Shown here one piece after another: positions 4,451 through 58,616 of a DNA stretch of 64,000 nucleotides. Location: positions 48,375-112,374 of the IMG/VR virus record IMGVR_UViG_3300037140_000076; one strand, given 5' to 3'. The translations under genes were made by a program, and so were the position numbers. This stretch comes from a virus. The notes under the pieces are model-generated. The model saw only the letters and a program-made list of their open reading frames with translations, had not been told where the DNA came from and searched no databases. Positions within the stretch are counted from its first letter, which is position 1. Each line of letters begins with the position of its first letter.

Positions 4451-6414
4451 TAGAACAATTTTAAATTCTGTGAATGTGGATCAATCGCGTCTATAATTTT
4501 TCTACAAGATTGAGTATAATATTTATAATTTATGTTATATTCCTCCATTGGTTTATCCTGGAATATATTAAAGTAAGTTGTGTTCCACCCCTTCTCAATC
4601 TCTACAGTTCTTCCAGCAAGCTTGGCTTCCATCTTATACTGCTTTTTAAGAGATTTAAATTCTTTGGATACATAATACCGAACTACGGTTTCGTTTATAA
4701 TATCTTTTTCAATCGTGTTGGTTTCAAAATCTACGTAATGTTCTACAAGATTAAAATCCTTTTTAACTTTCACCCCTCCACAGAAATCATAAATGTCCTT
4801 GCAGCTTTTTATGTAATCCTGAATAGGAACGTTGTTAACATAGAATGCTTCCAGGGCTTTGGGTATAACCAGGAAGGAGGGGTTCTTATGATATTCAAGT
4901 TCCTTGTCTTCCGGCTTCATTGAATATGCAAAGAGGCCCTTTCTCTTTACTTTTCCTTTTTCATCAACAGCAAGATAGTTATTAACGTCCATAATAACAA
5001 TCTTTTTATACATCTTATCTTCCAAAGCAAGTTTTGTATACACTTCCCACTTCTTCATACAGTCCTTAACGTTCTGTTCTTGTTCAACCGGATAACCAAT
5101 CGTAACTCCATCTGTATTTATCTGGTAAAAAACAACTCCTTTTACTTTTATGCTTAATACTTCAGCAAGCATCAAAAGAAGAAGCTGACCATTAACAGTA
5201 ATTGCAAACGTGTACTTCGGGTCATGTAAGTAATTATTAGGTTCCTTACTAAGCCCATAAGTTGCGTTAAGAATAATCTTAAATACCAAATTCTCAGGGT
5301 CTTCTTTTGGAATCTCCTGGCGCATCTTAAAAAGATTTTCATAAACGTCACAAAAGACCTCTGAAAGATGTTCGGGATATAATCTGTTTTTAATACCCAA
5401 GTTGGGATAGAAGGAAGTTACATCAATATCTTTAATCTTCCAGGTCTCTGTGCTGTTGTATACCCCAGGCTTTGTACATCCATGTATACCGCCCAGGCCA
5501 GTAACTACTTCCTGGAGGTTGTGAAACTTGAATTCCTTTTTTACCTTCTTTAATTGCATATTGTTCTCTTCGAACTTGTATGGATTAAATTCCAGGTCCT
5601 CATAAAACTTTTTAACTGCGTTGAGGATGGGGTCCCTAAACTTAATATAGTCGAATAGGACATCTATTGTAGCAATCCTGCTGCGATATGTACGTTTCTC
5701 CTTCAAGTCCTTATAACGTATTCTCATTGCTTCAGAAAGGAACTTTCCAAAGATGTCACGGGCCATGCGTGGCTCTGAAGCATTCATAAGATTTAGTTCA
5801 TACTTTTCTGAGAGCTTAAATCTTAAATCAGTTTCAAATTTGTTAAGTTCAAATAATCTATGAGTTGCATGAACATCGTTTGCATCGTATATAACAATCT
5901 GAGTTACCTGTTCCTGAGAAGTTATTTCTTCAGAGTGATGGATCGGCATTGATTCAATGTTTGGAAATCTCATTGTGAATTCCAACCACTTTAATGAACA
6001 ACGTTTGCCCATTCCATCATAATGCTTCTGCTTATATATGTCAATGTGAGGGATGGTAAATTTCCATTCCGGGATAAGGTTCATCCATTTCTCTTCTCCT
6101 TCTTCAAGACCTATTATCCATTGAGCTTTTTCATGAAGTCTCCGGGCAATATCTTCTCCAGACCAGGATCTCAATTTTTTAAAATTGAACATCATGTATT
6201 CAAGTATCTGGCAGTCAAATCCGTTACAATTGAATCCAACCAGGATATAATAATGGTCCTTTAGCTTCCTTAAGAACTTCATCATCTCAAAGAAGTCATT
6301 CTGGAAGGGACTTATTACAAAATACTTTTCCTTCTTCGTGGTCCAATCCATGAAGTACGCTGTGAAACAGTTTGCAAGAGTTTCTAAATCATATATGGTA
6401 TAGCGTTCTTCCAT
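4450..6414 (-). CDS. family B DNA polymerase with 3'-5' exonuclease
   Basis: 654 residues. Exonuclease motifs: YDLETL (8-13, Exo I), GFNCNGFD (60-67, Exo II), YDANDVHATHR (176-186, Exo III). Polymerase motifs: DIDVTSFYP (329-337, motif A), KIILNATYG (379-387, motif B), NTDGVTIGYP (433-442, motif C, with TDG in place of the usual DTD). It is short for the family, as in other compact phage PolB enzymes. This is the replicative polymerase; neighbours are helicases. The altered motif C still has one Asp plus the motif A Asp for metal binding. Confidence 0.88.
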   Translation of the reverse strand: MEERYTIYDLETLANCFTAYFMDWTTKKEKYFVISPFQNDFFEMMKFLRKLKDHYYILVGFNCNGFDCQILEYMMFNFKKLRSWSGEDIARRLHEKAQWIIGLEEGEEKWMNLIPEWKFTIPHIDIYKQKHYDGMGKRCSLKWLEFTMRFPNIESMPIHHSEEITSQEQVTQIVIYDANDVHATHRLFELNKFETDLRFKLSEKYELNLMNASEPRMARDIFGKFLSEAMRIRYKDLKEKRTYRSRIATIDVLFDYIKFRDPILNAVKKFYEDLEFNPYKFEENNMQLKKVKKEFKFHNLQEVVTGLGGIHGCTKPGVYNSTETWKIKDIDVTSFYPNLGIKNRLYPEHLSEVFCDVYENLFKMRQEIPKEDPENLVFKIILNATYGLSKEPNNYLHDPKYTFAITVNGQLLLLMLAEVLSIKVKGVVFYQINTDGVTIGYPVEQEQNVKDCMKKWEVYTKLALEDKMYKKIVIMDVNNYLAVDEKGKVKRKGLFAYSMKPEDKELEYHKNPSFLVIPKALEAFYVNNVPIQDYIKSCKDIYDFCGGVKVKKDFNLVEHYVDFETNTIEKDIINETVVRYYVSKEFKSLKKQYKMEAKLAGRTVEIEKGWNTTYFNIFQDKPMEEYNINYKYYTQSCRKIIDAIDPHSQNLKLF

Positions 6415-6621: not shown

Positions 6622-6786
6622 TTATTTATTTTTACGATTAAAATAAAAAGCCAATACCGAGACCCAGGAAAAGAATACAAAAAAGAAATTGAAAAGCAGT
6701 CCATCCTCTTCCGTTTCTTCATTAAGATATAATGTTCCAGCATATAAACCTCCTAAGATATATAAAAAAAATAATACTTGTTCCAT
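6622..6786 (-). CDS. small two-pass membrane protein
   Basis: 54 residues (MEQVLFFLYILGGL... ending FYFNRKNK). Two hydrophobic segments (about 4-20 and 31-48) are separated by an acidic loop (NEETEEDG). It fits exactly between neighbouring genes on both sides. Function unknown. Confidence 0.55.
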   Translation of the reverse strand: MEQVLFFLYILGGLYAGTLYLNEETEEDGLLFNFFFVFFSWVSVLAFYFNRKNK

Positions 6787-11897: not shown

Positions 11898-12057
11898 ATT
11901 GATAGTTTTTAATTTCAAAAAAAAGGCCCAATATAGAAATACCGGGCCAATACTTATTTCTAAGGTTTGTCAGTGGACTAGTCGGAATTCGAATCCGAGT
12001 CTTCAATACAAAAAATCTTACTTTTCTTTATAGGTTTAGGATAACGATTTAATCTTA

Positions 12058-12156
12058 CTACCGTTCCAAAAGAATTTTCCTACCCTCCACCACTCGGTTT
12101 AGGTCCGAGAACCATGCTACACCAGCCATTTTCTGTTTCAAGGTATGACTACCCAT
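12058..12156 (-). CDS. possible micropeptide (32 aa)
   Basis: Open frame MGSHTLKQKMAGVAWFSDL... ending LLER, stop TAG followed directly by TAA. It starts 3 nt after the stop of another short frame. Supported only by spacing and protein-like composition. Confidence 0.25.
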   Translation of the reverse strand: MGSHTLKQKMAGVAWFSDLNRVVEGRKILLER

Positions 12157-12159
12157 GCA

Positions 12160-12255
12160 TCAAGCTAATTCCAGTTCTTCACTGAAAACCGAAGCGAGTA
12201 TCGCTTCTCCTTCTGCAATACGTTCAGCTTTAGACTTTACGTTTGTTTGTTGCAT
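12160..12255 (-). CDS. possible micropeptide (31 aa)
   Basis: Open frame MQQTNVKSKAERIAEGEAI... ending EELELA, amphipathic helix-like. Lies in an 0.8-kb stretch without large genes. Confidence 0.3.
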   Translation of the reverse strand: MQQTNVKSKAERIAEGEAILASVFSEELELA

Positions 12256-12259
12256 ATTT

Positions 12260-12535
12260 ATTAAGGATGTTATATACTGCATCCACCTAAAATAAAACCT
12301 TTCAATACTGAATCAATAGCCTTTCTAGCCCATAAATTAAAATAGTAGAGAGTCAAAGAGGTACGGATACGTGAAGACTATATTTCCCAATCTTTATAGT
12401 TATTTCCCGTTGCAACAGTAATAACACCTCCAGTTTGTCGGAAGCTTTTTTGATTGGTACATCTCGGACACCGTTTCGACCACGCCCATGATCAGTGGGT
12501 TTGTGCGGTTCTTCATCTACTATTTTAAAAAAGTT
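12260..12535 (-). other. unassigned stretch with competing short reading frames
   Basis: No frame is convincing. On the minus strand, one ATG frame (12516-12400, 38 codons) ends RCYYCCNGK; a second lacks a start but carries KRCPRCTNQKSFRQTGG; a third is open with GRGRNGVRDVPIKK. The 12450-12520 part is more GC-rich than its surroundings. It could be a remodelled gene or an RNA. Confidence 0.3.
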
Positions 12536-12592: not shown

Positions 12593-12687
12593 ACGTACGC
12601 TGTTTTAGGCTACAGATACCTCATACGTAACCATTGCCGTTAGAATATAGACCGATTTATGATACTATACAACGGTTGGATTTTTCG

Positions 12688-12757
12688 AACATCCAAGAGG
12701 AATCGAACCCCTGCTTCACCCTACACGGGTGCGTCCTCCCACTAGACCATAGATGTT
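12688..12757 (-). tRNA. tRNA-like gene, anticodon possibly TGT (Thr)
   Basis: Acceptor AACATCT/GGATGTT and T-arm AGGGG-TTCGATT-CCTCT fold well, and the D-arm is of the GGTCTAGTGG type. The anticodon arm is unusual: CACCC/GGGTG closes tightly, and a 7-nt loop CGTGTAG gives TGT but places G at position 33. Isotype is uncertain; it may be degenerate. Confidence 0.5.
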
Positions 12758-26521: not shown

Positions 26522-26543
26522 TTATAACAAAATTTTGTTATAA
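26522..26543 (+). promoter_or_regulatory. 22-bp palindromic operator, perfect copy
   Basis: Perfect palindrome with half-site TTATAACAAAA; the most symmetric member of the dispersed family. Two degenerate half-site clusters lie just upstream (26471-26512). Confidence 0.7.
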
Positions 26544-36041: not shown

Positions 36042-36110
36042 ACGTGCCAGGCTAAGGCAGCCAAGCAAACTCCAAATCTGTAGGAGATAGTTCGATTCTA
36101 TCGGTGCGTG
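36042..36110 (+). tRNA. tRNA-Trp(CCA)
   Basis: Acceptor ACGTGCC/GGTGCGT, D-stem GGCT/AGCC, loop CTCCAAA with one mismatch in the stem, T-arm GATAG-TTCGATT-CTATC, G73. Confidence 0.7.
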
Positions 36111-36115
36111 CAAAT

Positions 36116-36176
36116 TATAACAAAAAGCAATTATAATTACTTTTTGTGATAATATTCACACAAAATTTTGTGATAA
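36116..36176 (+). promoter_or_regulatory. two palindromic operator copies
   Basis: A split copy (TTATAACAAAAAG at 36116 and CTTTTTGTGATAA at 36141-36153) and a compact copy at 36155-36176 with core CACAAAATTTTGTG. Downstream, TTGG (36180-36183) and TTACTTTG (36203-36210) form a weak promoter. Confidence 0.6.
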
Positions 36177-36259
36177 ATGTTGGAAGTGTCAAAAGTATTG
36201 TTTTACTTTGCACCCAACTTTCACCAGTAAAGGACACGCCACCACGAAAAAACAATGAT

Positions 36260-36343
36260 ATGAAGTGGCGCAACTACGTCTTGGCTTTTTTTGGGGGAAC
36301 CTACGGAGGGGGGCCTCACCCCTCTCATATTATTGATTTATAA
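36260..36343 (+). CDS. possible micropeptide (27 aa)
   Basis: MKWRNYVLAFFGGTYGGGPH... ending IIDL; the Gly/Pro-coding part contains a GAGGGG/CCCCTC inverted repeat, so it may instead be a terminator of a short transcript. Confidence 0.3.
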   Translation: MKWRNYVLAFFGGTYGGGPHPSHIIDL

Positions 36344-36392
36344 TACGTTAAATGATTACCGGGTAATTTACTGGGCCTGGTAAAGCTTATAA

Positions 36393-36424
36393 TTTGGTTA
36401 TGTGCTTTGAATTACATATATTTA
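36393..36424 (+). promoter_or_regulatory. promoter of candidate ncRNA
   Basis: TTTG (36393-36396), 20 nt, TATATTTA (36417-36424). Confidence 0.6.
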
Positions 36425-36429
36425 CAGAG

Positions 36430-36620
36430 GTAAAAAGCACAAAAAATATAAAAAGAGATTCAAGGGGATCATTTAAGATATTACCATCACAAAAATTCCT
36501 ATCTGGTTATAATCAAAAAACGTAATCTGCGTCCATTTAAAACGTTTAAGCAGATGGCAGTGAATTAGGAAACACTGTTGCCCGGTGGTATAAAAGATGC
36601 AATTTATTGCATCTTTTTTT
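36430..36620 (+). ncRNA. candidate ~190-nt non-coding RNA
   Basis: Between the promoter above and a strong terminator there is no frame longer than a few codons. The region has a GGCAGTG ... CACTG-TT-GCC hairpin near 36555-36582. It ends before the promoter of the gene at 36675. Confidence 0.5.
36592..36620 (+). terminator. rho-independent terminator
   Basis: AAAAGATGCAA-TTTA-TTGCATCTTTT plus T-tract. Confidence 0.85.
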
Positions 36621-36638: not shown

Positions 36639-36669
36639 TTGGTTTTATAATAAAAAACAGTTACATTTG
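36639..36669 (+). promoter_or_regulatory. promoter of pre-terminase operon
   Basis: TTGG (36639-36642), 19 nt, TACATTTG (36662-36669); ATG 5 nt later at 36675. Confidence 0.6.
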
Positions 36670-36674
36670 CAAGT

Positions 36675-37022
36675 ATGAGAGCGTTGAAGATAGAAAAAAA
36701 GACTGATTCGAAAACTCAACAGATAAAGCTTGTATTATCAATCATTTGTCTATTGAATAATATTACTCTCTCAGAAACAGATTATATATCTCTTGCTTTT
36801 TTTATTCAGTATAAAATGAGCCACAAAACCGATGATTTGATAATCAAGAGTGGGGTGGTCAAGAACATGGACGTTTTAAGAAACGTTAAAACCAGGTTAT
36901 GTAAGAAAGGATTTTTAAAAAGAGATCCTAAAGAATACAAAACCTATGATTTGAACATGAGTGCGGGGGAGTTTAATTGGGAAGACAATGATATTCGATT
37001 AATTATAAAACTCAATAATTGA
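36675..37022 (+). CDS. possible winged-helix DNA-binding protein
   Basis: 115 residues, basic, helical: KLVLSIICLLNNITLSETDY then LRNVKTRLCKKGFLKRD, which resembles a helix-turn-helix with wing. First gene of the pre-terminase operon. Regulator role is inferred. Confidence 0.45.
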   Translation: MRALKIEKKTDSKTQQIKLVLSIICLLNNITLSETDYISLAFFIQYKMSHKTDDLIIKSGVVKNMDVLRNVKTRLCKKGFLKRDPKEYKTYDLNMSAGEFNWEDNDIRLIIKLNN

Positions 37023-39753: not shown

Positions 39754-41856
39754 ATGAGTATAATAACCAGTCCGGAGTTTTTTATTAATATAAAAAAGAT
39801 ACCGGATAAAGCTTCCAAAGAATATCTGCCCTTCTTCAGGGCAGAAATGAATAAAGTAAAACAGGGTGTAACCATTGCTGGAGTAAGAATTCCAGGATGG
39901 TTATATTGGCATATAAACCACTGGGTAATTGATATAGATGTTCCAGTACAAGGCACAAATATTAATTATGTTGAGCGTAGACCATCACATCCTTTTTTAA
40001 GGGATAATGATTGGATTATTGCAGAACATATTGAAAGAGCAGAAAGTTTAAAAAAAGGTGTATTACTTCTTGGTACTCGTCAGCTTGGTAAAAGCGAAAT
40101 AGGAGCTTCTTATAACGGGAGAAGAGGTATTGCTTTTGAAAATAGTCAAAATGTTATTGCTGGTCTTTCTGATCCGGATTTAAAACTTCTTCTTGGTAAG
40201 TTGGATAGAGGGTTTACAAATCTTCATCCCTATTTTAAACCAATAAAAATAATAAACGATCCTAAGAAAGAAATTATTCTTGGATATAAAGACCCCCAGG
40301 GAGAAAGAGTTAAATATTCTGAATTCCTAATTCGAAATTTAGATTCAGGAAAGAATACTGAAAACTTAGCGGGTCCTACTACTTCTTCACTTACTTTGGA
40401 TGAGTGTGGTAAAGGAGATTTCCTTGAAGCCTTCATTGCTGCTAAACCTGCTCTTGAAACCGCTTATGGTTGGAGAGGTATGCCTTTATTTATAGGGACC
40501 TCTGGTAGCTTTGATAAGGCTGAGGATCTTCAAAGGTTCCGGGAAAATCTTGACACTTATAATTTTATTGAAGTTGAACTTAAGGATGAAAAAAAACAGG
40601 ATATATATTTTATTCCAGGTTGGATGTCATCTCGTGCGAAAAGAAAAAAAATAAGATTATCTACTTATAAAAAAGTACCCAAAGGAAGCGAACTTGATAC
40701 TATTGCTATTCATGTTGTAGAAAACCCTGAAGAAGAAATACAAAGAATTTTAGATTATAGAGAGTCATTAAAAGTTGCTGGAGAAATAACATTGATGAAG
40801 AAAGAGACAATGTATTATCCTTTAAATGAAGAGGAATTATTTTTAATTGATGATAGTGATAATATATTTTCTGATGTAAAAGAAATATGTAAAGCTCATT
40901 TACTTTATTTGGAAACAATTGAAGTGAGTGAAGAATATGGATGGATGACAAGAGACGAAAATGGTAAACCAAAATTCGTTCCAACTAAGAATGCTTTTCC
41001 TATTAAAGATTTTCCTGCTGGAGAACATGAAGATAAAGATGCCCCTATTATTATATGGTCCCATCCTATGGAAGGCCAAGAATTCGGGATTTTGCATGTA
41101 GGTGGAATTGACCCTTATAACCAGGATGAATCATTTTATTCCCCTTCCCTGGGAACCCTATATATTTATCGTAGGACATATGATCCTTTAAAAGGCAATC
41201 ATCAAGAATCATTTGTTGCTTCATATTCTGCTCGTACAAAGACTATATCTAAATGGAGGGAGCAAGTAAGACTTCTTTTAGAATATTACGGAGCTACTGC
41301 TTTACCGGAAAATGAAGAGCCGGGTCTTATTCGTTGGTTTGATGAAAAACATATTGGACATTATCTTGAAGACGGTCTTGATCTAGCAAAGGAAATAAAC
41401 CCCAATACCACCAGTAATAGAAATAAAGGATTATCAGCTACTACAGCAAATATAAGATATGGAAATGGTCTTTTAAAATCTCATATTAACGAAGATCTGG
41501 TTATGGGCCAGGACCCTTTAAGCGGGGAGAATATAATAAAGAAAGGAGTAATCCGGATAAAGGATAAGGTTTTATTAAAAGAGGTAATTGCTTATACCCC
41601 TGCCATGAGCATTAAAAGTAGGGCAGGGACCTCTTCAAATGCAAGGACTAAAAAGAAAGCTACCAACGTTGACCGGATTGTAGGGGCAAGACATGCTCTG
41701 ATCCTGGCAAAATTAAAAGATAAATATTTTCCCCTTGCTAAGATAAAGAACCCCCTCTCTACAAATAAGCCTGAAAAAAAGGCTATTAAAAGCCCTTTTA
41801 CAGGTATAAACAGTCCTTTCGGATCTCGAAGATTTCCCTTCGGTGGAAAATTATAA
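39754..41856 (+). CDS. terL: terminase large subunit
   Basis: 700 residues. ATPase: LLGTRQLGKSEIG (105-117, Walker A), SLTLDECGKGDF (212-223, Walker B with Glu), and a coupling region after. Nuclease half: HVGGIDPYNQDE near 448-459 (metal-binding Asp) and IRWFDEKHIG near 523-532. Packages DNA through the portal encoded next. Ends inside the first copy of the 22-bp palindrome. Confidence 0.88.
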   Translation: MSIITSPEFFINIKKIPDKASKEYLPFFRAEMNKVKQGVTIAGVRIPGWLYWHINHWVIDIDVPVQGTNINYVERRPSHPFLRDNDWIIAEHIERAESLKKGVLLLGTRQLGKSEIGASYNGRRGIAFENSQNVIAGLSDPDLKLLLGKLDRGFTNLHPYFKPIKIINDPKKEIILGYKDPQGERVKYSEFLIRNLDSGKNTENLAGPTTSSLTLDECGKGDFLEAFIAAKPALETAYGWRGMPLFIGTSGSFDKAEDLQRFRENLDTYNFIEVELKDEKKQDIYFIPGWMSSRAKRKKIRLSTYKKVPKGSELDTIAIHVVENPEEEIQRILDYRESLKVAGEITLMKKETMYYPLNEEELFLIDDSDNIFSDVKEICKAHLLYLETIEVSEEYGWMTRDENGKPKFVPTKNAFPIKDFPAGEHEDKDAPIIIWSHPMEGQEFGILHVGGIDPYNQDESFYSPSLGTLYIYRRTYDPLKGNHQESFVASYSARTKTISKWREQVRLLLEYYGATALPENEEPGLIRWFDEKHIGHYLEDGLDLAKEINPNTTSNRNKGLSATTANIRYGNGLLKSHINEDLVMGQDPLSGENIIKKGVIRIKDKVLLKEVIAYTPAMSIKSRAGTSSNARTKKKATNVDRIVGARHALILAKLKDKYFPLAKIKNPLSTNKPEKKAIKSPFTGINSPFGSRRFPFGGKL

Positions 41857-41894
41857 CAAAATTTAGTGATAATTATAACAAAATTTTGTGATAA
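41851..41894 (+). promoter_or_regulatory. tandem pair of palindromic operators
   Basis: Two adjacent 22-bp copies (41851-41872 and 41873-41894), each with half-site TTATAACAAAA, followed by a further half-site (TTTGTTATAA). Confidence 0.7.
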
Positions 41895-58522: not shown

Positions 58523-58616
58523 TTATAACAAAATTTTGTGATAATTTTCGCATTTAAGAAAATATTCCATAATTTTGATCATTCCTGATCAAATTTATCA
58601 CAAAATTTTGTTATAA
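58523..58616 (+). promoter_or_regulatory. two palindromic operators flanking a promoter
   Basis: Copies at 58523-58544 and 58595-58616 flank a TAATTTTG -7 box (58570-58577) and a TTTGATC/GATCAAA inverted repeat (58575-58594). The second copy would overlap the transcription start. Confidence 0.65.

Follow-up and report, generated by a model that had tools for sequence, protein, structure and literature searches.

The candidate noncoding RNA ahead of the terminase-ward operon is real as a conserved RNA structure, and its transcription is predicted. It lies in the window, the whole stretch of 64,000 nt analyzed here, which is part of the 112-kb virus record IMGVR_UViG_3300037140_000076 (positions 48,375-112,374). 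The earlier note had proposed an ncRNA gene at this place, and the proposal was supported by a conserved fold, by the same order of tRNA-Trp, RNA, terminator, promoter and p115, and by the lack of a conserved reading frame. Covariation in relatives, which had been named beforehand as a test, was positive across three phages, namely that of the window and its relatives L003 and L021. Since the shape rather than the exact letters was preserved in two related phages, the phage apparently needs the RNA.

The RNA core and its pairing in three phages

The core (36482-36590, about 110 nt) contains five helices, P1, P2, P3, P4 and PK (Table 1). P1 closes the core, P2 and P3 interleave as an H-type pseudoknot, and PK forms a second pseudoknot in which the P4 loop pairs back to the 5' side. 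A full-size five-helix descriptor, written after the locus had been seen, gave no match in 42.8 Mb of shuffled window and a single one, the RNA locus, on the two real strands. A looser structural descriptor matched shuffled and real DNA at similar rates and revealed no further homologues. Pseudoknot-free energy folding preferred a competing helix in the window, and the folding z-scores, calculated under a model without pseudoknots, were modest (-1.4 and -1.7 for the window, -2.6 for L021).

Table 1. Features of the small-RNA locus and its flanks (window coordinates).
Feature	Position	Strand	Remarks
tRNA-Trp (CCA), last of the upstream tRNA array	36042-36110	+	Rfam 25.1 bits, under the gathering score
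Bacteroidota-type promoter of the RNA, TTGG-N19-TATATTTA	36394-36424	+	pattern scan; conserved in L003
Predicted 5' extension (about 50 nt) with small hairpin GATTC/GGATC	36431-36481	+	start predicted from the promoter
P1 5' strand UACCAUC	36482-36488	+	pairs with 36584-36590
PK 5' strand UUCCUA	36496-36501	+	pairs with P4 loop 36566-36571
P2 5' strand AACGU	36519-36523	+	complementary to 36542-36546
P3 5' strand AUCUGC, interleaved with P2	36525-36530	+	pairs with 36550-36555
P2 3' strand ACGUU	36542-36546	+	three-way alignment
P3 3' strand GCAGAU	36550-36555	+	three-way alignment
P4 hairpin CAGUG-loop-CACUG	36558-36577	+	arms 36558-36562/36573-36577; loop holds PK 3' strand 36566-36571
P1 3' strand GGUGGUA	36584-36590	+	pairs with 36482-36488
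Intrinsic terminator of the RNA	36592-36617	+	AAAAGATGCAA-TTTA-TTGCATCTTTT, then T-rich tail
Separate promoter of the p115/terminase operon, TTGG-N19-TACATTTG	36639-36669	+	pattern scan
p115, first ORF of the terminase-ward operon	36675-37022	+	homologous in relatives

The near relative L003 from IMG/VR, which is 94.6% identical to the window over 10 kb, was compared over 36479-36592. Six of its eight substitutions formed three compensatory pairs (36496/36497 with 36570/36571, and 36559 with 36576), the other two (36490 and 36580) were unpaired, and no pair was broken. When up to eight substitutions were placed at random one million times, the 29 pairs all survived in 1.6% of the sets, and a lone set combined this with three compensatory pairs.

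A covariance model of the nested helices P1, P3 and P4 was trained on the window and L003 and run over 25 loci. Outside the training set, one match was well below E = 1, at 5600-5707 of L021 (E 1.1e-5; 2e-6 in a search of the whole record), covering the full length with all 18 modelled pairs standard. The terminase (TerL) of L021 is 56% identical to that of the window, and the homologue lies between its tRNA-Trp and p115 with a promoter and a terminator of its own.

In the three-way alignment, a sample of three genomes of which two are nearly identical, nine of the 29 pairs changed on both sides, two changed on one side and none was broken. All cells were paired (100%), which was reached by none of 500 shuffles, and controls with the partner slid along were 30-45% paired, none equalling the real alignment. 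The changes on both sides were distributed as three in P1, four in PK, one each in P3 and P4 and none in P2. Both one-sided changes fell in P1, where L021 also carries the three double changes, while in P3 one pair went from G-C to A-U in L021 and in P4 an A-U to G-C change was compensatory in L003 and L021. PK reads UUCCUA/UAGGAA in the window, CACCUA/UAGGUG in L003 and CACCCU/AGGGUG in L021, so that four of its six pairs covary. PK was absent from the model that made the alignment, and its covariation is therefore not a product of the fit. P2 was likewise outside the model, and because it is identical in all three phages and never varies, its case consists of complementarity and conservation. 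A cause of the paired changes that is independent of structure is improbable.

Predicted transcript boundaries and genomic neighborhood

The window's phage is a relative of the crAss-like group. Family matches were obtained for its terminase (a large-terminase family) and for its major head protein (head-protein families); among named phages, the best terminase relatives were Leptolyngbya phage Lbo-JY46 (41%), phage csAssE-Sib, Cellulophaga phages phi17:2 and phi4:1, and crAss-like phages. The RNA locus sits in a gap of about 565 nt between tRNA-Trp and p115. The long tRNA array upstream ends with tRNA-Arg(acg) and then the weak tRNA-Trp(cca), which was missed by ARAGORN and is syntenic with the tRNA-Trp of L011, L012, L013, L016, L020 and L021. 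On the other side p115, for which no Pfam or PHROG family was found, is the first in a series of small genes that extends to the terminase; terminase and portal belong to this operon downstream of the RNA.

The earlier note had described a promoter and a strong terminator around a unit of about 190 nt. The terminator is present with -10.9 kcal/mol and is identical in L003; in L021 a terminator of different sequence occupies the same place (about 5709-5735). As to the promoter, a Bacteroidota-type site was found, and no sigma-70 site in the scan fits; the TATAAT-like string at 36388 is TATAAAT in L003. The published Bacteroidota consensus has TTTG at -33 and TAnnTTTG at -7 (PMC7366714). The site of the RNA has TTGG at 36394 and TATATTTA at 36417-36424, with a spacing of 20 nt counted from TTG and the last base off consensus. 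Relaxed matches to this type numbered 16 in the 64 kb compared with 6.9 in shuffles, so the motif by itself is weak evidence, and it gains weight from its conservation in L003 and from an equivalent, TTGG-N19-TATCTTCG, just upstream of the L021 homologue (5567-5597). The promoter of the p115 operon is the better of the two in the window; it has an equivalent at 5805 of L021, and in both lineages it lies after the terminator.

From the RNA promoter, the transcript start is predicted at about 36431, which agrees with the proposed length when counted to the terminator end. The RNA would thus be about 190 nt long in the window and about 135 nt in L021, where the 5' extension is absent and the promoter directly precedes P1. 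The hairpin of the extension is retained with changes in L003.

A promoter-like TTGG-N19-TTACTTTG also occurs at 36180, and the sequence after it is identical in L003 to about 36280. Within this region (36180-36343), the segment 36281-36335 is GC-rich and hypervariable relative to L003, and lies inside a possible 27-codon ORF, MKWRNYVLAFFGGTYGGGPHPSHIIDL, for which L003 has a different frame. A single 400-nt RNA from the 36180 promoter is not favored because this hypervariable middle differs between two 95%-identical phages. Immediately 5' of the 36180 site is one copy of a repeated palindrome, ACAAAATTTTGT(T/G)AT, found at 26524-26541, 36160-36174, 41853-41892, 58525-58542 and 58597-58614 of the window. 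It gave 12 matches with at most one mismatch on both strands against 0.29 expected and is operator-like, and one palindrome of this type lies in the p115 promoter region of L005 (6850). Elsewhere in the window, a phage-encoded tmRNA gene was observed on the minus strand at 11971-12331 (Rfam RF00023, 48.9 bits, gathering 47), with the ARAGORN tag peptide VKSKAERIAEGEAILASVFSEELELA and adjoining tRNA-Thr at 12687-12756; five related records and the Leptolyngbya phage gave no tmRNA above the cutoff.

Distribution of the RNA

The comparison with Rfam proposed in the earlier note returned no matching family over the RNA: in Rfam 15 nothing was at or above the gathering score, and only weak, chance-level matches fell on the terminator palindrome. 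The L021 homologue had no Rfam match either. The Rfam profiles of ROOL and GOLLD did not match the RNA, whose bracketed unit is about 190 nt compared with the several hundred expected. No additional copy turned up in the other related phage records, which were searched over their whole length, or in 73 more related loci. Degenerate DNA patterns recovered only L003 and L021 besides chance matches among IMG/VR viral contigs, and in GTDB genome contigs chance matches only, none of which was matched by the covariance model. BLASTN against phages gave nothing convincing. No match was obtained in 395 genomes from the phylum of the Ignavibacteriales genome G013, which is weak evidence since this phylum has no positive control.

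In L005, L013 and L020, the tRNAs and p115 are in the same order and the RNA is absent, with only the terminator and the promoter there, while L011, L012 and L016 carry other inserts at the same spot. Since phages sharing this gene order can lack the RNA, it appears to be an accessory gene in a variable slot rather than a core component of packaging. A structured element that follows the last tRNAs in the Leptolyngbya phage PP438436 (L005, about 6715-6785) is not a homologue; it is tRNA-Trp. Between the tRNA-Trp and the RNA homologue of L021 (4672-5560), there is an ORF of about 100 aa without a Pfam match and a stretch of about 540 nt, poor in ORFs and richer in GC, that has short inverted repeats and no Rfam match; this part of L021 is possibly a mobile or structured insert. 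L012 (4665-4790) and L016 (4635-4760) bear a different short, promoter-preceded stretch with a motif that by eye is repeated, CGCGGAGYMGCA/CGCGAGAGYMGC.

Possible modes of action and relation to known RNAs

We consider it probable, at roughly two in three, that the locus of this crAss-like phage is a small-RNA gene in its own right, with a product that is trans-acting, accessory and fold-based. The RNA would be transcribed as a separate stable species of about 190 nt, and its folded surface would act in trans by binding a host or phage protein, the ribosome or another RNA. Its function would be accessory in some phages of the group, not that of an essential virion or packaging component. A trans-acting fold is favored by the promoters and terminators being separate, by the pairing being kept and by the RNA being optional; trans action itself is read from this layout. 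A more specific and rather doubtful proposal is that it represents a new class of compact double-pseudoknot RNA, which phages would carry as accessory cargo at a variable position separating the tRNA array from the virion operon. Such an RNA may, for example, act as a folded decoy for, or an inhibitor of, a host RNA-binding protein or an anti-phage defence.

Pseudoknotted cores of this compact kind are typical of riboswitches, and the RNA immediately precedes an operon and a terminator. It might then be a cis-acting attenuator or riboswitch, whose fold senses a ligand or tRNA in the leader and controls the terminator at 36592; such control would set how much transcription of the tRNA operon reads through into the p115/terminase operon. 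This reading seems unlikely. P1 and the terminator stem do not overlap, and no alternative pairing that involves the terminator arms was conserved among the window, L003 and L021 (the 3' arm of L021 was no better than shuffled sequence and the window marginal only). Moreover, L005 and L020 have the terminator and the p115 promoter without the RNA. With no competition between P1 and the terminator, no conserved antiterminator and a p115 operon with its own promoter past the terminator in both lineages, an attenuator is less likely than a trans-acting RNA.

A regulatory RNA that acts by base pairing is improbable too. Its single-stranded parts would pair with host or phage mRNAs and the fold would be a scaffold for stability, in keeping with the A-rich 5' extension and unpaired stretches of the window RNA and with the many terminator-ended intergenic sRNAs of Bacteroides (PMC7366714). 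However, the phage's own genome holds no extended antisense match, only the RNA's own terminator palindrome, and it is the folded core that is conserved, the 5' extension being absent in L021.

Lying ahead of the operon for terminase and portal, the RNA would suit a packaging role like that of the pRNA of phi29, made beside the terminase operon, but relatives whose terminase, portal and gene order are homologous lack it, and it matches no known RNA in Rfam. A motor part should not be optional, and this role is very unlikely.

Instead of an RNA gene, inverted repeats arising by chance or a small coding sequence would be conceivable in AT-rich DNA, which gives many weak hairpins, and with a 43-codon frame open from TTG (36394-36525), yet these readings can practically be set aside: the covariation is hard to reconcile with chance, and the frame, the only same-strand ORF of at least 30 aa inside, begins in the promoter, differs from L003 only by changes that alter amino acids (read by hand) and is missing in L021. 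The description of the unit as free of ORFs therefore held, and comparison of L003 and L021 revealed no conserved reading frame; a conserved start codon and frame had been named as a refutation. The pair changes and the non-nested pairing, which is impossible in a DNA cruciform, reject the coding and cruciform readings.

Among known systems, the pRNA of phi29 is likewise a small phage RNA near packaging genes, whereas the RNA here is accessory, belongs to an unrelated phage type and has no Rfam match. ToxI antitoxin RNAs of type III toxin-antitoxin systems are short tandem repeats before a toxin gene; the phage RNA forms one larger unit, next to which no toxin gene was recognized. The two are alike in being small pseudoknot RNAs, and ToxI binds a protein (PMC5772629). 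With the GibS-type intergenic sRNAs of Bacteroides the RNA shares the intergenic position, an intrinsic terminator and, as predicted, a TAnnTTTG-type promoter, but GibS is reported to be relatively unfolded with a mainly single-stranded 5' part (PMC7366714), in contrast to the conserved pseudoknotted core here, and the present RNA is encoded by a phage. As in Bacteroidota-type terminator-ended sRNAs, an own intrinsic terminator is present, also in L021; the candidate promoter is consensus-like and conserved, with a motif that taken alone is near chance.

Few phage-encoded structured RNAs are known. Its size makes the RNA accessible to probing, structure determination and mutagenesis, with covariation-backed helices to mutate; its optional presence within the phage group makes a comparison of gain and loss possible, and related phages bear differing inserts at the site that separates the tRNA array from the late operon. 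The RNA is filed as a new small family among the phage structured ncRNAs near tRNA islands. ROOL and GOLLD are similarly phage-encoded, structured and pseudoknotted, lie near tRNA islands and have no assigned function, but GOLLD often exceeds 800 nt and ROOL has stems P1 to P19 (PMC12286853), compared with a core of about 110 nt and five helices in the present RNA.
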